From positions 1 through 33,378 of the forward strand of contig DYNS01000003.1 of the NCBI GenBank assembly GCA_020720965.1: a stretch of 33,378 bases of DNA, given 5' to 3'. This stretch comes from Anaerolinea sp. Lineage in GTDB: Bacteria > Chloroflexota > Anaerolineae > Anaerolineales > Villigracilaceae. Of this stretch, positions 21,694-31,228 are shown piece by piece; position 1 is the first letter of the stretch, and each line of letters opens with the position of its first letter. The translations under genes were made by a program, and so were the position numbers. The notes under the pieces are model-generated. The model was not told the DNA's origin, did not search any database, and saw nothing but the letters and a program-made list of their open reading frames with translations.

Positions 21694-22595
21694 GGGTTCT
21701 CCGTGTTTGTGTTGGGTGAAGAAAAAAGCCACTGCTCCAATTTACGCCCCAGCAAGGGGTAGTGATAATCCCTCCCGCGCAGGACTTGCAAACCTGCCCA
21801 TTGCCCCAAAAGGTGATACAGCGGGCTTAAGAGCAAAACCAAACCGCTCAGGCACATCCAACCGATGCCAAAAATCAGCAGGTAGCCCAGCAAGGCATCA
21901 TCCCCGGCGCTGACAATGGGGAGGAAGGCAAAGACCGAGAGGATGTATAGAATGCCCAAACCGAGCGAGATAATTCCCCCCACTGCCTGGTACACCACCG
22001 TCTGCGCCGACTGAAAACGCAAAAACAGAGAGCGTTTGCCTTCCAGCACCCAGGCGGCGGCGGGGGCGAGAAGCCCCCAAAGGGGGAAGATGACCAGAAA
22101 ATGCCCCAGCCCCGCCACAACCGAATCCATTGCGGCTTCTGGTAGGGGCGCTTGCGGGTCGGAATCGTAGCCGAGGAAGGCTGCCAGCCGCGTTCCCAGC
22201 AGCGGGTAACGGAAATCCAGCCCCAGGGCGCACATCACCGCACCCAAAAGGGGCGGAAGGAGGTATGCCGCAAAGAGAAACAGGACGGAGAGGAACATCA
22301 ACACCATCCAAATAGCCAGAAGGGCATCTATGGAGGCGGAATCCCGTTCTGCGAAGACGCTTAGTGGCACCAGTAGTAAAGTTAGAAAGATGAGGACTAC
22401 CATGTAAACCAGTATCCACACCGTGTAGCCCAGAGAGTGATACCCGTAGGCTTGCAGGCTCTGAAACGCGGCGTAACGCGATTTTTCGCGCTGACTTGCC
22501 CACAGCGCCACCGGCAAAACCGCCCCATACCCCATGAGTAAAACCGAAAGGTGAGCCAGAACCGCCAAAATCCGTTCCTCGGTGTTCGGTTTCAT
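21690..22595 (-). CDS. DUF4870-like multi-pass membrane protein
   Basis: NTEERILAVLAHLSVLLMGYGAVLPVALWASQREKSRYAAFQSLQA; many hydrophobic helices; 4-bp overlap with the M55 gene. Confidence 0.75.
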   Translation of the reverse strand: MKPNTEERILAVLAHLSVLLMGYGAVLPVALWASQREKSRYAAFQSLQAYGYHSLGYTVWILVYMVVLIFLTLLLVPLSVFAERDSASIDALLAIWMVLMFLSVLFLFAAYLLPPLLGAVMCALGLDFRYPLLGTRLAAFLGYDSDPQAPLPEAAMDSVVAGLGHFLVIFPLWGLLAPAAAWVLEGKRSLFLRFQSAQTVVYQAVGGIISLGLGILYILSVFAFLPIVSAGDDALLGYLLIFGIGWMCLSGLVLLLSPLYHLLGQWAGLQVLRGRDYHYPLLGRKLEQWLFSSPNTNTENP

Positions 22596-24148
22596 AGGGC
22601 GGGTTTTACCTTGCGCCAGGCTTCGGCGGCGGTTGCCTGTTCGTAAGCGTAACCGAGGCGGAAGAGGGTGTCTTCGCGGTAATCCGGCGCGAAGAAGTGA
22701 ATGCCAAGCGGCAGACCGGCTTCATCCAACCCGGCGGGGAGCGAAATGCCCGGAACCCCGGCATGGTTGCCGGTGACGAGGAGTTGGTCGGCGTACTGCA
22801 TCAGCACCGAGTCGCCGAAGACGCCGCCCATCCGAAAGGCGGGCGAGGGGGTGGAGGGAGTCAGCAGGGCATCGACTTGTGTAAATGCCTGGTCAAAATC
22901 CTGGCGGATGAGGGAGCGAATTTTGAGGGCGCGGTTGTAATACTGCTCACTATATTGGGCAGCCGAAACGTACATGCCCATCAGAATCCGCAGTTTGGGC
23001 TGAGCGCCAAACCCCTCGGCGCGGGATTTGCGGTATAGGGAGCGCAAATCTCCGCTGCGTTCCGGGCTGCGATAGCCGTACTTTACCCCATCGTAGCGGT
23101 GTAGGTTGGAGGCGGCTTCGACCCGCGAGATAACAAAGTAAGCGGGGATGCCAAATTTGGTGTGCGGCATGGCAATCCCCTCCACAATCTCTGCGCCCTG
23201 GGCGGCGAGACGTTCGGCGGCATCGTACACTTTTTGGAGGATGGCGGCGGGCAGGGGTTGTTCGGTCAGGCTTCCGTTAGAGTCCATGTAGGTAATGCGG
23301 AAATAGTCTGGCGAGAGACCAATTTTTAGCCCACGCACGCCTTTTTCCATCTCTGCCAGGTAATCTGGCACGGGCAGGTTGGCGGCAGTGGAGTCGTGCG
23401 GGTCTGCGCCCGCCATCACTTGCAAGGCAAGGGCAGAATCGGCAACCGTGCGGCTGAGGGGTCCAGGGCAATCCAGCGAGGAGCCGAAGGCAATTAACCC
23501 ATAACGGGAGACTCGCCCGTAGGTCGGTTTGAGTCCCACCACCCCGCAGTATGCCGCAGGCAGGCGAATGGAGCCAGCCGTATCGGTTCCGAGGGAAATT
23601 GCCCCCTCAAACGCGGCAACCGCCGCCGCCGACCCGCCGGAAGAGCCACCCGGAACGTGGTCTGTGTTCCAGGGGTTGCGCGGCGCAGGCTGAAAAGCGG
23701 AAGACTCGTTGGATGAGCCAAAGGTGAATTCGTCCAGGTTTACTTTGCCCAGCACAATCGCGCCAGCCGCCTCCAGACGGTCTACGGCGGTGGCGGTGTA
23801 GGGGGCAATGAAATTTGCCAAAATTTTGGAGGCGGCGGTGGAGGGGGTATCTTCTACGGTGAAGATGTCTTTGACGGTTATCGGAACCCCGGCGAGGGGT
23901 CCTGCATCCTGCCCGGCGGCGATTTGCGCGTCTATGGCGGCGGCTTGTTTGCGGGCGCGGTCTGCCGTCAGGGTGATGAAGGCGTGGATTTTATCCGGTT
24001 CGGCTTGCGGGTCGCCTCCTACCCTGCCGGGGGAGCCATCCACTTTGGCAATGTGGGCGAGGTGGGATTCCAGCACCTCGAGGGCGGTTACCTCCCGCGC
24101 ACGTACCTTGCGGGCAATTTCCTGGGCAGAGAGTTCAAAGAATTCCAT
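22592..24148 (-). CDS. gatA: Asp-tRNA(Asn)/Glu-tRNA(Gln) amidotransferase subunit A
   Basis: Amidase signature PGGSSGGSAAAVAAFEGAISLGTDTAGSIRLPAAYCGVVGLKPTYGRVSRYGLIAFGSSLDCPGPLSRTV. Confidence 0.95.
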   Translation of the reverse strand: MEFFELSAQEIARKVRAREVTALEVLESHLAHIAKVDGSPGRVGGDPQAEPDKIHAFITLTADRARKQAAAIDAQIAAGQDAGPLAGVPITVKDIFTVEDTPSTAASKILANFIAPYTATAVDRLEAAGAIVLGKVNLDEFTFGSSNESSAFQPAPRNPWNTDHVPGGSSGGSAAAVAAFEGAISLGTDTAGSIRLPAAYCGVVGLKPTYGRVSRYGLIAFGSSLDCPGPLSRTVADSALALQVMAGADPHDSTAANLPVPDYLAEMEKGVRGLKIGLSPDYFRITYMDSNGSLTEQPLPAAILQKVYDAAERLAAQGAEIVEGIAMPHTKFGIPAYFVISRVEAASNLHRYDGVKYGYRSPERSGDLRSLYRKSRAEGFGAQPKLRILMGMYVSAAQYSEQYYNRALKIRSLIRQDFDQAFTQVDALLTPSTPSPAFRMGGVFGDSVLMQYADQLLVTGNHAGVPGISLPAGLDEAGLPLGIHFFAPDYREDTLFRLGYAYEQATAAEAWRKVKPAL

Positions 24149-24468
24149 TATTTCAAATCCTGGTGTGGAATTTCCGGCACGACAATATAACCATCTGCCA
24201 CTTCTGGCGCGGTGCGTAACAGGCGGGCGGGGTTAGGGTGGCGGAGAATCTCGTCCTCCCGCAGGGCAGGGGAGGCGGCGGGGGGGTACGAAACGCCATG
24301 CGAGGCGGCGGGGGTTTGGGGGTCCAGGGGAATGGCTTGCAGTTCGTGAATGGCTTTGAGTTGGTTGTTCAATTGCTTTCGCAGGTATTCCGCTTCTTCG
24401 GCGGTGAGTTCCAGCGCGGCAAGTTCCACAAGGTGAGTAAACAGTTCGGGGGTAATTTCTTCGCTCAT
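24148..24468 (-). CDS. gatC: Asp-tRNA(Asn)/Glu-tRNA(Gln) amidotransferase subunit C
   Basis: LVELAALELTAEEAEYLRKQLNNQLKAIHELQ; LREDEI; directly upstream of gatA. Confidence 0.88.
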   Translation of the reverse strand: MSEEITPELFTHLVELAALELTAEEAEYLRKQLNNQLKAIHELQAIPLDPQTPAASHGVSYPPAASPALREDEILRHPNPARLLRTAPEVADGYIVVPEIPHQDLK

Positions 24469-24521
24469 GGCTCCATCCTTTCGGGTCGGGATTATACCCC
24501 GGATGGATTTGAATCATTTTC

Positions 24522-24550
24522 TTGACGATACCGCCTGCGGGTGGTATCCT
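24522..24550 (+). promoter_or_regulatory. Sigma70-type promoter of the Thr-leader operon (TTGACG - 17 nt - TATCCT)
   Basis: TTGACG 24522-24527, TATCCT 24545-24550. Confidence 0.7.
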
Positions 24551-24560
24551 TGCGCCCGTG

Positions 24561-24650
24561 ATGAACCCAACCCTGATTGTTGACACCAATACCACTACTA
24601 CCACCCGCTCCCGTCTGGCTGCGGGGCTTTGGTGTTCAGGGAAAGCGTAA
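24561..24650 (+). CDS. Putative threonine-rich leader peptide MNPTLIVDTNTTTTTRSRLAAGLWCSGKA (alternative GTG start at 24558)
   Basis: Seven Thr codons within the first 15 codons including five consecutive; followed by stem-loops and a terminator before the aminotransferase gene. Confidence 0.72.
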   Translation: MNPTLIVDTNTTTTTRSRLAAGLWCSGKA

Positions 24651-24695
24651 GCGGCAAAAGCCGCAGACGCGCAAAACTGGCAAGCCAACGCCCCG
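24622..24695 (+). promoter_or_regulatory. Predicted antiterminator pairing, mutually exclusive with the terminator
   Basis: CGGGGCTTTGG (24622-24632) can pair with CCAACGCCCCG (24685-24695), 10 of 11 positions Watson-Crick. Confidence 0.6.
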
Positions 24696-24716
24696 AAGCC
24701 TTCGGGGCGTTTTTTT
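24687..24716 (+). terminator. Attenuator rho-independent terminator
   Basis: AACGCCCCGAA-GCC-TTCGGGGCGTT with T-run to 24716. Confidence 0.88.
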
Positions 24717-24741
24717 ATACCGACTCACAAGGAGAAATCAA

Positions 24742-26046
24742 ATGAATATTTCACACGAAACCCCTGTATACGCCGTGCCGGATGCCAACCTGACCCCCGT
24801 TAGTGGGCATTTGCATGACCTGATGGACATTCCGCCCTCACGCATGTTCCTCATCAACAAGTCGCTCAAGGTCTATCAGCAGAACAACCCCGGCGCACCG
24901 GTGTATGATGCCTCGCAGGGCGATGGCGGCGCATCCCTACCGGGGGTTCCCAAAGCCCTTTTGGAACGCGCCAATCAGTTGCAGATAGAACATGGCACTT
25001 CCTACGATATGCCCTTCGGCACCGAAGCCTACCGCAAATCGGTGGTGGAGCAGTATTGGAAGTTGGATGCCGGGCTGGGTGTGGGTCCCGCCAACGTGCT
25101 GGGTACCAGCGGCGGGCGGGATGCCCTCATCAAAGCCTACCAGGCGATGATGGCGCTTGGCTATGGGCGGCAAGGCGATGTGGTCATGGTTTCCCGCGTT
25201 CCCTGGATTTCGTATAACTGGGGTCCTTACGGCGTAGGCGCAAACGTCCTGTGGACTCCCGGCGACCCGGCGCAGGGTTGGGCATATTCCGAGGATGCCA
25301 TTCGCGCCAGTGTGGCGTTTGCCGCCCAAAGCGGGCGCAAGGTGGCGGGCTTGGTCATCACCAATCCCGATAACCCCACCGGCTTAACCATCCCGGTAGA
25401 AAAGCAGGTTTCGCTGGCAAAGGCGGCATTGGAAGCCGGGGTTGCCTATGTGCTGTTCGACTGGATGTATCACTATGTGACCGATGAAAGCCCGATGGAC
25501 CTCAATACCTTCCTGCCGCACTTCAGCGCGGAAGAACGCAAACGCCTGATGTTTTTGGATGGCATTACCAAAAGCCTGGGCGGTTCCAACATCCGCAACT
25601 GTCATCTCATTGCGGATGAGAGCGTGATTAAGTTCACGGTTGCGCGGTCTTCTCATGGGGTCATTCCCACCTTTTACTCGTTGGCAGTGGCGATGGCGGC
25701 TTACGAAATTGGCTACCTGGAAGCGGCAAAGACCATCATCGAGCCGACCAACGCCAGCCGGGTGGTGTTGAAGGAACTGCTGGCAAAGAGCGGTTTGCAG
25801 CACATCATCGGCAAGGGCTATTACGCCTTCATCAACGTTGGGGAATACATCCGCGCCAAGGGCTGGCAAGATACCGAGCCGCTTGGTCAATACCTGGCAG
25901 AAAACTTTGGGGTTGCGGTTGTGCCGGGAGCCTTCTTCTCCCCCTTTGATGGTGATTGGATTCGCTTCTCCTACGCCACCCCCGTTCAGCGCACCCAGGG
26001 CGCATGGGAGCGGCTTATGGCAGGGTTAGAGTCTCTTAAGGGCTAA
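24742..26046 (+). CDS. PLP-dependent aminotransferase class I/II
   Basis: GTSGGRDALIKAYQAMM, ITNPDNPTGLTIP, FLDGITKSLGGSNIRNCHL (PLP Lys); RBS AAGGAG; start 24742 instead of the ORF track start 24577. Confidence 0.88.
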   Translation: MNISHETPVYAVPDANLTPVSGHLHDLMDIPPSRMFLINKSLKVYQQNNPGAPVYDASQGDGGASLPGVPKALLERANQLQIEHGTSYDMPFGTEAYRKSVVEQYWKLDAGLGVGPANVLGTSGGRDALIKAYQAMMALGYGRQGDVVMVSRVPWISYNWGPYGVGANVLWTPGDPAQGWAYSEDAIRASVAFAAQSGRKVAGLVITNPDNPTGLTIPVEKQVSLAKAALEAGVAYVLFDWMYHYVTDESPMDLNTFLPHFSAEERKRLMFLDGITKSLGGSNIRNCHLIADESVIKFTVARSSHGVIPTFYSLAVAMAAYEIGYLEAAKTIIEPTNASRVVLKELLAKSGLQHIIGKGYYAFINVGEYIRAKGWQDTEPLGQYLAENFGVAVVPGAFFSPFDGDWIRFSYATPVQRTQGAWERLMAGLESLKG

Positions 26047-26051
26047 GAATT

Positions 26052-28868
26052 ATGACCTATAACCCTCAACAATTTGCAGAAAAATACAAACTCGCCCTGC
26101 AAACCGCCGAAAAACAAAACCCCAACGGCGGACTAAACGGCTACGAGTTGGAATGGAACCTGCTGGACGAGCAGTTCCGCCCCCTGCTGACGGTTGGCTC
26201 TGGACCCGCCCAACAATCCTTTGTAGATTACCTCCGCGCCGAATGCCTGCCCTCCTGGCTGGCGAACTTCTCGCAGTTGGAAGTCTTTCACTGGATGGTG
26301 GAATTTGCCAGCCGCCCCTACTTCTCCCCGCGTGGCGCGGCATACGAAGCCCGCCTGCTGGAGGGCATTCTGATGAATGCCCTCTCCCGCGCCGGAAAAC
26401 ATTTTGACGAGCGTCTCTTCTATTGGCACGGCAACCTACTCTTCCTCACCAACATCAGCCACACCAGCATCCCCGGCAACTGGGCAATTGCCAAACGCCG
26501 CTACCTGGAACGCTGCGTAGATTTATACGGCGACACCCTCGCCACCGCCGGAATCCACATCAACCTCTCTCTGCCAGAAACCTTGCTCTCCTGGGACTTC
26601 ATGCACCTGCCTGCCTCCGAGCGCGGCGACAAACACTTTGACGATTACAAATCCGAGTTCTACATCACCGCCACCCGGCTCTTACGCGCCTTCTCCAGCC
26701 TCTTCATCGCCACCAGCGCCAGCACCCCCATGCGTGCCGAAGTCCGCAACGGCAGACCCGTCCTTGTCATCACCGAAGATGACTCCGTCCGCAACCTCAC
26801 CTTCCCCAACCCGGTAGAAATGGACCTGCCCGACCTCTACCGCAGTTACAACGACTACCTCCAAATCTCTTACGACCTGGTGCGGCGCGGCGTGCGCTTT
26901 GGCAACAATAACTGGACCCCCGTCCGCGCCCGCTCCTTTGCCGAACCAGTGGAAAGGCTCATCTCCACCACCAGCGGTCAGTTGGACGAGCTCTACGCGC
27001 GTGGCTTGTACTCCATCGGCGAGGAAACCCCGGCAGAAGAGATGGCGCGTCAGATTGAAAAACAAAACCTGATGGCGCGAATCAACCTGCCTATGGGGCG
27101 GGTTGAAATCCGCACCGATGACGGCGGCAACCCCCTGGAAGTGGACATCGCCAATCTCACCCTCAAGCAGCTCCTGCTCCTACGCTTCTACGCCGACCCC
27201 ATCTTCGCCCGCTCCTTCCGCTATGACCGGGAAGACATCCCCCGCGCCCGCGCCAACGAGCGTCTCGCCGCCCAACACGGCTTACGCGCCGACATCGAAA
27301 ACCCCCTCACCGGCAAACCCATTTCCATGCGCGCCTTCCTGCAATGGACTCTGGACGAACTGCGCCCCCTGGCAGAAGCCCTGGGCGTGTGGGAAGACCT
27401 GACCCCCCTGCTGGAGATGGCAAAAGGAGCCCCCAACACCGCCGAGAAAATCCGCGCCCGGCTGCGCCGCCAACTCAACGGCGGCGATGAAGTCCCCGCC
27501 TCCGTGCTGCGCGAAATGGCGCTGGAACGCGAATATCAGGTACGCGCCGATGTGGAAAAAATCGCCGCCCGCGCCGCCCAACTCAACGGCGACTCGGAAA
27601 AGCTGGGCGAACTGCTCCAGCACGCCCGCGAAGATGCCCGCAACGACTCTGCCTTGCCGGTACGCTTCCGCGCCTCCTCCGGCATCACCCTGGAAAGCGA
27701 ATACCCCAACAAAACCGCTGAAATCCTCGACCTCGCCCAACACCTCATCCGCATCCCCAGCGTCACCGCCTGCCCGGAAGAACGCCTAGAAGAAGTTCAC
27801 CGCGCCGGAACCTTTGTATACGACTACCTGCGCGGTCATGGGCTGGAAGTGCGCTATTTTGACGGAAAGTACCCGGCCGTGTACGCCAAATTCCCCTCCG
27901 GCAAAAGCCAGGGCAGCATCCTCCTCACCGGTCACTTTGACGTGGTGGAACCCGAACCAGACGACAGCCAATTTACCCCGCGCATCGAAGGCGATTATCT
28001 TTACGGGCGCGGCGCAGCAGATATGAAAACCGTAGTCGCCACCTACCTGGTCTGGATGAAGGACACCCTCAAAGCCGGAGCGCCCTACCCCAACATCACC
28101 CTTATGCTGGTGGGCAACGAAGAAAACGGCGAAGCCGAAGCAATGGGCACGCCCTTTGTGCTAAACCTTCTCAGCGAGGAGCAAGGCGCACCCTGCACTC
28201 CGGCGCTCTTCATCGCCGGGGAACGCACCGGCGAAAAGGGCAACGAACTCTTTGGCGAAATTTGTGTGGAAAACCGGGGCGTGATGCGCTTTGACGTTAT
28301 CGCACGCGGAACAAAGGGGCACAGCGGGGTGGCCGGCGCCGGGGATTTGAGCGAGAAGCTCATCACCGCCCGCGCCGCCCTGAACCAGATTTTTGCCAAG
28401 CACCTCACCCTCAAAGCGGCGGATGGCTGGCAGTCCCAGGCAAAATTCCCTTTCATCAGCGTTGGCACGCCGGGCGTGTACAATGTTACCGCCGCACAGG
28501 GCGTTTTGGGCGTGGAAATCCGCCCCATCCCCCAGGATGACACCTCCGCGCTGCGGGCGGAAGTGGAAGCCTACTGCGCCGAAAACGGTCTGGAAGCCCA
28601 ATTCTCGGTCATGGAAAACGGAGTCGCCTGCTCGCCGGAGAACCCCGCCTTGCTGGCTCTCATCCAAGCCGTGCGCCAAACCTCCGGCGAGGAACCGCGC
28701 ATTGGCAAAAAACTGCCCGGAACCAGCGCCCGCTTCGCGCCGGGAGGGCAGGCAGTCGTTTGGGGCCAGAGTGGGATTGGACCGCATGCCAAAAACGAAT
28801 CGCACTACATCCCCAGTATCGAGCCGTATTACAAAGCGCTTAACGCGCTGGCAAAGTTGTGGCAATAA
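26052..28868 (+). CDS. Fusion: N-terminal GCS2-type carboxylate-amine (glutamate-cysteine) ligase-like domain plus C-terminal M20-family metallopeptidase/deacylase
   Basis: N-half NGYELEWNLLDE, VFHWMVEFAS, AGIHINLSLPE, GRVEIRTDDGG; C-half LIRIPSVTACPEERL, LLTGHFDVVEPEP, YLYGRGAADMKT, LVGNEENGEAEAMG, HYIPSIEPYY; one uninterrupted 938-aa ORF. Confidence 0.82.
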   Translation: MTYNPQQFAEKYKLALQTAEKQNPNGGLNGYELEWNLLDEQFRPLLTVGSGPAQQSFVDYLRAECLPSWLANFSQLEVFHWMVEFASRPYFSPRGAAYEARLLEGILMNALSRAGKHFDERLFYWHGNLLFLTNISHTSIPGNWAIAKRRYLERCVDLYGDTLATAGIHINLSLPETLLSWDFMHLPASERGDKHFDDYKSEFYITATRLLRAFSSLFIATSASTPMRAEVRNGRPVLVITEDDSVRNLTFPNPVEMDLPDLYRSYNDYLQISYDLVRRGVRFGNNNWTPVRARSFAEPVERLISTTSGQLDELYARGLYSIGEETPAEEMARQIEKQNLMARINLPMGRVEIRTDDGGNPLEVDIANLTLKQLLLLRFYADPIFARSFRYDREDIPRARANERLAAQHGLRADIENPLTGKPISMRAFLQWTLDELRPLAEALGVWEDLTPLLEMAKGAPNTAEKIRARLRRQLNGGDEVPASVLREMALEREYQVRADVEKIAARAAQLNGDSEKLGELLQHAREDARNDSALPVRFRASSGITLESEYPNKTAEILDLAQHLIRIPSVTACPEERLEEVHRAGTFVYDYLRGHGLEVRYFDGKYPAVYAKFPSGKSQGSILLTGHFDVVEPEPDDSQFTPRIEGDYLYGRGAADMKTVVATYLVWMKDTLKAGAPYPNITLMLVGNEENGEAEAMGTPFVLNLLSEEQGAPCTPALFIAGERTGEKGNELFGEICVENRGVMRFDVIARGTKGHSGVAGAGDLSEKLITARAALNQIFAKHLTLKAADGWQSQAKFPFISVGTPGVYNVTAAQGVLGVEIRPIPQDDTSALRAEVEAYCAENGLEAQFSVMENGVACSPENPALLALIQAVRQTSGEEPRIGKKLPGTSARFAPGGQAVVWGQSGIGPHAKNESHYIPSIEPYYKALNALAKLWQ

Positions 28869-28946: not shown

Positions 28947-29657
28947 TTATACCTTCAACGCCTGGCGCAGCCGGCTGGCAACCGCCCGCATAATTTTGAT
29001 GCGGGCAAAATACTTGTCGTTGGCTTCCACCAGTACCCAGGGCGCGGAGGGAGTGCTGGTTTTGAGCAGCATTTCTTCGGCGGCGGTGATGTAATCTTCC
29101 CATTTGCCCCGGTTGCGCCAGTCTTCATCCGTAATCTTCCAAGATTTGTAATGAATCCGTTCCCGCTCTTGAAAGCGGGCAAGCTGCTCTTCGTTGCTAA
29201 TGTGCAGCCAAAACTTTAGCACGACCATGCCAAAATCGGTCAGTTGGCGCTCAAACTGATTAATCTCGCCGTAGGCTCGCTTCCAGGCACCTTCGCTGCA
29301 AAAGCCTTCCAGGCGCTCCACCAGCACCCGCCCATACCAGGAGCGGTCAAAAATGGCAATCTGCCCCTGCTCTGGCAGCCGCCGCCAAAAGCGGTACAGG
29401 TAGTGATGGGTTTTATCCTCCCCGCTGGGGGCGGAGATGGGCCAAACCACGTAGCCGCGTGGGTCGATTCGCTCGGTAAGCCGTTTGATGCTGCCGCCTT
29501 TCCCGGCGGCATCCATCCCCTCAAATACCATGACAACCGGCAGTTTTTGTTGGTAAACCTGAAAAGCCAGTTGGTGCAGTTCGGTTTGCAGGGCGGCTTT
29601 TTGTTTTTCGTATTCGCTGCGCTCCAGGCGCAGGTTCAGATTCAGGCGCTCAAGCAT
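28947..29657 (-). CDS. ppk2: Polyphosphate kinase 2 (PPK2) family protein
   Basis: VVMVFEGMDAAGKGGSIKRLTERIDPRGYVVWPISAP, IFDRSWYGRVLVERLEGF, KFWLHISNEEQLARF. Confidence 0.92.
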   Translation of the reverse strand: MLERLNLNLRLERSEYEKQKAALQTELHQLAFQVYQQKLPVVMVFEGMDAAGKGGSIKRLTERIDPRGYVVWPISAPSGEDKTHHYLYRFWRRLPEQGQIAIFDRSWYGRVLVERLEGFCSEGAWKRAYGEINQFERQLTDFGMVVLKFWLHISNEEQLARFQERERIHYKSWKITDEDWRNRGKWEDYITAAEEMLLKTSTPSAPWVLVEANDKYFARIKIMRAVASRLRQALKV

Positions 29658-30429
29658 TAACGGCTCCTTTCAGCTCGTCTTCCGGGCGGCGGGGTTGGGC
29701 ATTGGGTCCCAGGCTGGGGGGCAGGGAGAGGCGGTCTTCCAGGGCGGTGATGATGGTTTCCAGCACCTTCACGCGCATAAAATGCCGGTCTGTGGCTTCC
29801 ACAATTGTCCAAAGCGCGTGGGGTGAGTCGGTGCGGGCGAGCATATCTTCCACCATGCCGTAAAATTTGAGGTATTTTTGGCTTTGCAGCAGGTCTTCTG
29901 TGCCAATTTGCCAGGCGGTGAGCGGGTCTGAGAGTAGTTTTTGAATGCGGTCTTGCTGTTCTTCCTGGCTGATGTGCAGCCAGAATTTGACGATGACGGT
30001 GCCATCGGCGGCGAGCATTTCTTCAAAGTCCACAATTTCCTGGTACACGCTTTGCAGGTCTTTCTTTTTGGTTTGTTTTTGCAGGCGCTCTATCAGCGCC
30101 CGGCGATACCAGGAGGTATCAAAGACGACCATTTGCCCCCTTGCCGGAATTTTGAGCCAATATCGCCACAACCAGGGGTAGCGGGTTTCAAAGGTGCGCG
30201 GCGCGGTGATGGGAACAACCCGAAAGCCGCGCGGGTCCATCCGCTCTGCCAGGATGTTCACCAGCCTCCCCTTACCGGTCGCCGCCCACCCCTCCAGCAG
30301 GATGATGACGGGGATGTTGGCTTCAAAGACGGCGTGTTCCAACTCGTATAGGCGTTGTTGCAGCACGCGCAGGCGCTTTTTGTATTCTTCTTTGGGCAGA
30401 AATTGTTGCAGGTCTGTGTATTCCAGCAT
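29650..30429 (-). CDS. PPK2-family protein, second paralog with variant P-loop WAATGKG
   Basis: VIILLEGWAATGKGRLVNILAERMDPRGFRVVPITAP, VFDTSWYRRALIERL, KFWLHISQEEQQDRI; start placed at MLEYTD. Confidence 0.88.
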   Translation of the reverse strand: MLEYTDLQQFLPKEEYKKRLRVLQQRLYELEHAVFEANIPVIILLEGWAATGKGRLVNILAERMDPRGFRVVPITAPRTFETRYPWLWRYWLKIPARGQMVVFDTSWYRRALIERLQKQTKKKDLQSVYQEIVDFEEMLAADGTVIVKFWLHISQEEQQDRIQKLLSDPLTAWQIGTEDLLQSQKYLKFYGMVEDMLARTDSPHALWTIVEATDRHFMRVKVLETIITALEDRLSLPPSLGPNAQPRRPEDELKGAVNA

Positions 30430-30448
30430 GGGCTTCTCCGGTGAGGCG

Positions 30449-31228
30449 TTAGTTGGGTTGGGGGCGCAAGAGAGCGCCGTATTTTTGTAAAAGAAGCCCC
30501 GTGCGCCAAAAAGCGACTGCCGCCATGCCGTGCGCCAACACGGCGAAGAGGGGCGGGGTTTGGTGGGTGTAGTAGGTCCAACATTCGCGGGTTGTGCCCC
30601 ATAGTTCCAAAAAGTAGCCCAAGCCCGCCCCCGCCGCAAAGGTGAGCAGGGCGAGGCGTTGGTTGGTGGGGGTGAAGATGAGTAGGGCGCAGAGAAGCAG
30701 CGCAGCGAGGGTGTAGGGTTGCCAAAAGGTGGGGGCGGTGAATTGCAACAGCAGAAAATAGAAAATGCCAAAGGTGAGCCAGTATAAAAACTTGAGAGGC
30801 AGACCGGTTTGGCGCGGCAGAGCCAGGTTCAGGGCGTGGGTAAGGCGGTCAATGCTCAGGCTGGCAATGGGCCACGCGGGTAAAATCCACAAGGGGGGGC
30901 GTTCTTCCGTATAATAAAACCACAGGTTGGTTTGGGTTCCCCAACTTTCTATCACCAGCCCGCCGCAAAAGCCCACAAAGAGAATCAGCGCATCGGTGCG
31001 GAAGTTGGCGCGGAACATGATGGCAAGCGACATGAAGGCGAAAATGCCCAGCAGCAGCCAATCCACCAGGACATACCAGGGATAGCACCCATCGGCGGCG
31101 TAAGCCCGTAAAATGGCGAGGTATTCCAGCACCAGCGGCTGCCAAATGTACACAATTAACAGGCAGACCAGTAAAAAGGCGCTAAAAAAGTAAGCAGAGT
31201 GGCGCGTAAAACCCAAAAAGCGTAACAT
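30449..31228 (-). CDS. Hypothetical multi-pass membrane protein with internal repeat
   Basis: Hydrophobic helices; repeated motif (IESWGTQTNLWFYYTEERPPLW / LELWGTTRECWTYYTHQTPPLF). Confidence 0.75.
   Translation of the reverse strand: MLRFLGFTRHSAYFFSAFLLVCLLIVYIWQPLVLEYLAILRAYAADGCYPWYVLVDWLLLGIFAFMSLAIMFRANFRTDALILFVGFCGGLVIESWGTQTNLWFYYTEERPPLWILPAWPIASLSIDRLTHALNLALPRQTGLPLKFLYWLTFGIFYFLLLQFTAPTFWQPYTLAALLLCALLIFTPTNQRLALLTFAAGAGLGYFLELWGTTRECWTYYTHQTPPLFAVLAHGMAAVAFWRTGLLLQKYGALLRPQPN

Follow-up and report, generated by a model that had tools for sequence, protein, structure and literature searches.

The region at 24522-24717 of the window, by which we mean the whole 33,378-nucleotide stretch of DNA analysed, is very probably a ribosome-mediated transcription attenuator that senses charged tRNA-Thr and, less certainly, charged tRNA-Asn, as judged from its sequence and from that of its relatives. 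The window originates from a 3.3-Mb draft genome whose closest relatives are Anaerolineales (Chloroflexota), and the attenuator region sits between divergent gatC/gatA genes and an aminotransferase gene (Table 1). The original prediction had described a promoter TTGACG-17-TATCCT, a 29-codon leader ORF with five consecutive Thr codons, an 11-bp terminator with a T tract followed by a ribosome binding site and the ATG of the aminotransferase gene, and a segment within the leader ORF able to pair with a stretch overlapping the 5' arm of the terminator, and all of these are present where it had placed them.

The -35 box TTGACG (24522-24527) and the -10 box TATCCT (24545-24550), the latter preceded by TG, are separated by a 17-nt spacer and form the only promoter-like site in 24300-24900, compared with 0.2 expected from shuffled sequences. 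The leader ORF starts with ATG at 24561 and stops with TAA at 24648-24650, and an in-frame GTG at 24558, 7 nt past the -10 box, is a possible alternative start. Thr is encoded by codons 9 and 11-15, and Asn by codon 10. The terminator, which lies between the leader ORF and the first structural gene, is a hairpin of 11 bp (7 of them G-C) with a loop of 3 nt and a T tract at 24710-24716. The antiterminator pairing, which excludes the terminator, can join CGGGGCTTTGG (24622-24632) to CCAACGCCCCG (24685-24695) at 10 of 11 positions, the mismatch being U-C (24628/24689). The region is predicted to fold at -64.2 kcal/mol, vs. -49.1 kcal/mol for shuffles (z = -3.6), and none of 200 shuffles was as stable.

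Table 1. Features of the putative attenuator and of the operon downstream of it (positions in the window).
Feature	Position	Strand	Remarks
Sigma-70-type promoter TTGACG-17-TATCCT, extended -10 TG	24522..24550	+	TTGAC-N-TGGTATNCT kept before nearly all orthologous leaders
Leader-peptide ORF MNPTLIVDTNTTTTTRSRLAAGLWCSGKA, 29 codons	24561..24650	+	No Shine-Dalgarno; ATG 10 nt past -10
Segment 1	24583..24608	+	24583-24589 / 24604-24608 can pair with segment 2 (24629-24635 / 24621-24625)
Control codons Thr-Asn-Thr-Thr-Thr-Thr-Thr (codons 9-15)	24585..24605	+	Thr+Asn enriched 18-41 nt before segment 2 (52 leaders)
Segment 2	24621..24635	+	Antiterminator 5' arm is 24622-24632
Extra hairpin between segments 2 and 3	24645..24670	+	From the fold of the window; window-specific, not shared across alignment A1
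Segment 3, antiterminator 3' arm	24685..24695	+	Overlaps 5' arm of terminator
Intrinsic terminator hairpin (segments 3:4)	24687..24711	+	In relatives, two-sided changes at 6 of the 11 pairs
Shine-Dalgarno AAGGAG of the aminotransferase gene	24729..24734	+	Precedes ATG 24742
Class I/II aminotransferase, probably aspartate aminotransferase	24742..26046	+	Pfam Aminotran_1_2; best solved relatives are aspartate aminotransferases
Two-domain protein: glutamate-cysteine-ligase-like N-terminus, M20 (DapE-like) metallopeptidase C-terminus	26052..28868	+	Second operon gene

This architecture is not confined to the window. A search with the aminotransferase as query gave 80 related loci, and leaders were sought in the window and 79 relatives; a promoter-anchored leader ORF, that is, a short ORF just downstream of a TTGAC...TGGTATNCT-type promoter, was found in 68 of these sequences, of which 66 also carry the terminator and were aligned (alignment A1), the genomes being related and the counts therefore non-independent. 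In the alignment, 94% of the terminator cells hold a standard pair and about half of the pairs show both-side changes (Table 1); no shuffle equalled the terminator in the share of paired cells or in covariation score. The antiterminator is paired in 88% of cells, its covariation score being 0.131 vs. 0.102 for shuffled and at most 0.041 for slid alignments. In several lineages, a switch from GGGGCG/CGCCCC to GGGGCA/UGCCCC runs through terminator and antiterminator alike, and in the majority of leaders, taken singly, none or hardly any of 50 shuffles matched the duplex of segments 2 and 3. By contrast, the 1:2 protector hairpin, which would overlap the control codons, is weakly supported: it is predicted in the window, and 79% of cells retain the 5-bp helix, whose covariation falls within the shuffled range. 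Since the whole arrangement is conserved in the 66 aligned sequences, it goes beyond chance. The original prediction had named a covariance analysis of orthologous leaders among its checks, and orthologues without a Thr-rich ORF or without the stems as one outcome that would count against it; in the analysis made here, both terminator and antiterminator covary and the Thr codons are retained.

Some aminotransferase orthologues (L004, L011, L063, L064) lack the element. Three records titled Acidobacteria (L074, L075, L081) contain orthologous operons with a terminator-like hairpin upstream of the aminotransferase gene and no recognisable leader ORF.

Translation of the leader ORF is probably leaderless or near-leaderless. 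The distance from the -10 box to the start codon is 8 nt in 43 of the 68 leaders and 7–10 nt in most others, and no Shine-Dalgarno sequence occurs between the two; as this spacing hardly departs from about 8 nt, transcription would begin at the start codon or within a few bases of it.

The codon content of the leaders points to the amino acids that are sensed. Thr and Asn account for 15.7 and 10.2% of residues in leaders of operons without aspartate kinase, vs. 4.4 and 4.2% in the two structural genes of the operon, and the enrichment is confined to the ORF frame and vanishes out of frame. Together they make up 59–79% of codons located 18–41 nt before segment 2 (52 leaders), 41% at 12–17 nt and about 8% at 48–65 nt, and a ribosome stalled on control codons 18–41 nt before segment 2 would mask segment 1 and free segment 2. 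The leader Thr codons are 80% ACC/ACU, with ACU over-used (37 vs. 18% in genes), and AAU is likewise over-used among Asn codons (71 vs. 48%). In E. coli, decoding of ACC/ACU by m6t6A-modified tRNA-Thr modulates thrL attenuation (PMC4132733). Arg codons are also frequent in the leaders (10%), but they coincide with the CCCGC required for pairing. Coding selection within the leader ORF appears weak, the synonymous fraction between close leaders being 0.35 in frame vs. 0.24 and 0.21 out of frame; only mildly coding-like substitutions are to be expected, because RNA pairing constrains the leader sequence too.

The sensed set is therefore probably Thr plus Asn rather than Thr alone, and we consider it quite probable that Asn is sensed as well. 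The threonine attenuation of the original prediction is thus supported in its Thr part and incomplete, the conserved Asn codons forming a second class. It might be supposed that these codons depend on the presence of an asparaginyl-tRNA synthetase, but no simple link exists: in the 11 genomes of the genus of the window (G000-G010) no asparaginyl-tRNA synthetase scored above the family cut-off, and the Asn codons are kept. As a consequence of this absence, Asn-tRNA in the genus is probably made through GatCAB. Counts of Asn_synthase domains were uninformative on the matter of the Asn codons. The divergent gatC and gatA genes (22592-24468) adjoin the attenuator in the window.

Taken together, we propose the following mechanism. 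Transcription would start on the leader AUG or immediately beside it, and the mRNA, leaderless or nearly so, would be engaged by a ribosome. When charged tRNA-Thr (or tRNA-Asn) is plentiful, the ribosome would pass the Thr/Asn codons, leaving segment 2 occupied or paired with segment 1, and the 3:4 terminator would form and end transcription near 24716; the structures are possible and conserved, and the kinetics are inferred. When charged tRNA is scarce, the ribosome would stall at codons 9–15 and cover segment 1, so that segment 2 is free to pair with segment 3; with the 2:3 pairing formed, no terminator would arise and the aminotransferase / ligase-M20 operon would be transcribed. If the aminotransferase supplies aspartate, from which both Asn and Thr are made, the combination of these two codon classes would make sense. 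The logic of ribosome-mediated attenuation put forward in the original prediction gains support from Thr-rich ORFs conserved in one frame, from the covarying stems and from the placement of the codons.

The aminotransferase carries the catalytic residues of PLP fold-type I enzymes and a basic site for a side-chain carboxylate: the PLP Lys277, the NPDNPTG motif, Arg408 and Arg126 are invariant or nearly so in 37 aminotransferase homologues, a conservation that does not prove the substrate. Arg126 aligns with the substrate-binding Lys position of the Thermus aspartate aminotransferase, a Lys that presumably binds the side-chain carboxylate of the substrate. In relatives, the same aminotransferase is found together with aspartate kinase and asd in a single operon, and in a genome lacking the aminotransferase of the window, an AspC/TyrB-type gene occurs under a like leader. 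Based on the solved relatives, the shared operons and this AspC/TyrB-type gene, the supply of aspartate is the likeliest function of the aminotransferase. For the second protein of the operon, weak Pfam matches to Glu_cys_ligase were obtained for 16 of 34 homologues, and the matches listed by a fold search fell on the M20 half of the protein only. In one relative (L196 1895-3058, G029:C452) a stand-alone M20 peptidase without the ligase-like half is located between aminotransferase and aspartate kinase, and in another (L060) the ligase-M20 frame seems split into four pieces, possibly through assembly errors. A role in lysine biosynthesis (DapC/DapE), as the weak family matches could suggest, was rejected on the basis of the leaders, in which Lys makes up about 2% of residues. 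Further downstream in the window, two neighbouring PPK2-family polyphosphate kinase genes lie on the minus strand (28947-30771).

The remark in the original prediction that these are not classical Thr or Ile biosynthesis genes needs qualifying, as the operon appears to be an upstream part of the same aspartate-family pathway: aspartate kinase and asd share the operon in relatives, and like elements precede aspartate kinase, thrC and the AspC/TyrB-type gene. These elements were found with a covariance model built on the aminotransferase leaders only and run over 41 genomes and then over 250 Anaerolineales genomes. A model trained on Thr/Asn leaders biases the catch toward such leaders; the identity of the downstream gene was not used by the model and is therefore an independent part of the evidence. 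Aspartate kinase, often followed by asd, lies downstream of the element in 24 genomes, and its leaders carry Thr and Met (e.g., MKQTPCGMTMTTTTTSRTNRGVLVLG). Over the 24 aspartate kinase leaders, Met accounts for 7.1% and Asn for 3.6% of residues, vs. 0.4 and 10.2% in the aminotransferase leaders; for the first 14 of them, p = 2e-14 for Met and 1e-5 for Asn, with no correction for relatedness. In the genome of the window, segment 2, segment 3 and the terminator are also found upstream of aspartate kinase and asd (L084, G000:C333), on a contig that starts inside segment 2, so that the leader is not readable there.

The remaining classes are represented by one or two examples each. The leader of a thrC-aspartate kinase operon (L244) has Thr only (MSAQITFTATTTTTTQALLGRRRVGG), and that of an AspC/TyrB-family gene (L106) has Thr and Asn (MQSIIRFSTDTNTNNTRLL). 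An aspS-gatA-gatB operon (L262, G253:C1) has a terminator and an Asn+Asp leader, MYTSIQFANNNNDNDDRCIVGRSFAG, with the run ANNNNDNDD, and a like Asn/Asp leader with a terminator occurs where only the start of aspS is visible (L226, G212:C111); such leaders are candidates for attenuators that respond to charged tRNA-Asp and tRNA-Asn, the products of those genes. One operon of argG-argH and further arginine genes (L254, G106:C259) has an Arg cluster in its leader (TARVRRPRPS) and a terminator. No comparable leader was found for the homoserine dehydrogenase genes of relatives, and nine weak matches of the model (L109, L110, L112, L114, L116, L120, L122-L124) look like other terminators and were set aside.

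Operons combining two of the genes are also informative. At five loci the aminotransferase operon runs on into aspartate kinase, and the leaders have Met and Thr and mostly Asn. Met codons in the leader of G029, MSKRMNSDVNTTTTMMTNPLFPG, predicted an aspartate kinase in the operon, which was then examined for this reason; the prediction held, the operon being aminotransferase-M20-aspartate kinase-asd. G076 (L233) also fits, with Met codons and with aminotransferase and aspartate kinase together, and Met codons are present in the leaders of all operons seen with both genes. These patterns suggest that control codons follow the gene controlled across the Anaerolineales elements. We therefore think it likely that an aspartate-family network of leaderless leader-peptide attenuators exists in Anaerolineales, where the combination of control codons in a leader would encode the branch ends to which the gene answers. 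Under this reading, aspartate supply would be marked by Thr+Asn, aspartate kinase by Thr+Met, an operon holding both by Thr+Asn+Met, thrC by Thr, aspS-gatAB by Asn+Asp and argGH by Arg.

Alternatively, the attenuator might respond to threonine only, the Asn codons being A-rich unstructured filler or tolerated neighbours, as AAY is one base from ACY. Thr is indeed the sole control residue shared by the aminotransferase, aspartate kinase and thrC leaders, and the leader of the window has one Asn only, inside its Thr run. However, Asn makes up 20% of control-region residues in the aminotransferase leaders but 3.6% of residues in the aspartate kinase leaders, the AspC/TyrB-type gene has the same Thr+Asn code, and Asn/Asp runs precede aspS-gatAB; a threonine-only attenuator is, in our judgement, unlikely.

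It is also conceivable, but very improbable, that the RNA switch is real and is worked by another agent, such as a protein that binds the RNA, a metabolite or the direct action of uncharged tRNA, with the short ORF being incidental. The comparative nature of the evidence, the weak coding selection on the ORF and the weakly supported 1:2 hairpin would be compatible with such an operator, whereas the absence of Rfam matches, also to T-box and riboswitch families, the fixed place of the ORF after the promoter, the identity of codons that tracks the downstream gene and their position where a stalled ribosome would act all speak for the ribosome. That an ordinary promoter and an unregulated terminator flank a chance Thr-rich ORF is hardly credible: a terminator-like site is not rare in 600 bases (1.0 expected from shuffling), but chance would not account for an arrangement that is conserved and covaries throughout the order, down to a second, overlapping pairing, nor for the reappearance of the element before functionally related genes. 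We therefore favor ribosome-mediated attenuation governed by Thr and probably Asn codons.

No Rfam family, including T-box, amino-acid riboswitches and the gammaproteobacterial thr leader, matched the window or 14 related loci at gathering score, and the element thus works like thrL but falls outside the Rfam thr leader family. The control codons of E. coli thrL are Thr and Ile, unlike the Thr+Asn (aminotransferase) or Thr+Met (aspartate kinase) found here. E. coli thrL-thrABC (PMC4132733) is otherwise alike in its Thr-rich leader peptide, terminator, mutually exclusive antiterminator, control of the aspartate family and ACY codons, and differs from the element in the window in the latter's Chloroflexota host, probably leaderless ORF and aminotransferase as the first gene. 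The actinobacterial trp, ilvB and leu attenuators (PMC1262725, PMC10272879) likewise combine a short ORF of pathway codons with terminator and antiterminator outside the Proteobacteria, for other amino acids and genes; conserved structures were not found upstream of genes of other pathways in Actinobacteria (PMC1262725), and Thr-rich uORFs were noted before ilvB (PMC10272879). A precedent for the leaderless form is given by the Cys-rich leaderless uORFs of mycobacteria, which have runs of one codon at the transcript start and were put forward as attenuators of genes for the amino acid concerned (PMC4633059); these concern cysteine, whereas the Anaerolineales leaders concern Thr, Asn and others and have a visible conserved terminator and antiterminator. 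At the time of a survey in 2010, leader-peptide attenuation was known from Proteobacteria and Actinobacteria only, and that survey added Firmicutes (PMC2965389). The literature we searched, with most subscription literature outside our reach, contains no report of a leader-peptide attenuator in Chloroflexota. Provisionally, then, the mechanism is already known, while the members, the Thr+Asn code, the taxon and the network are new as far as we searched.

Through its codon content, such a leader can indicate to what an uncharacterised operon responds, and in the window it places an aminotransferase / ligase-M20 operon that was unannotated within the metabolism of the aspartate family. The elements also offer natural variants for studying how one ribosome-operated switch may integrate two or three amino acids, and they bear on how attenuation would work on leaderless mRNA.
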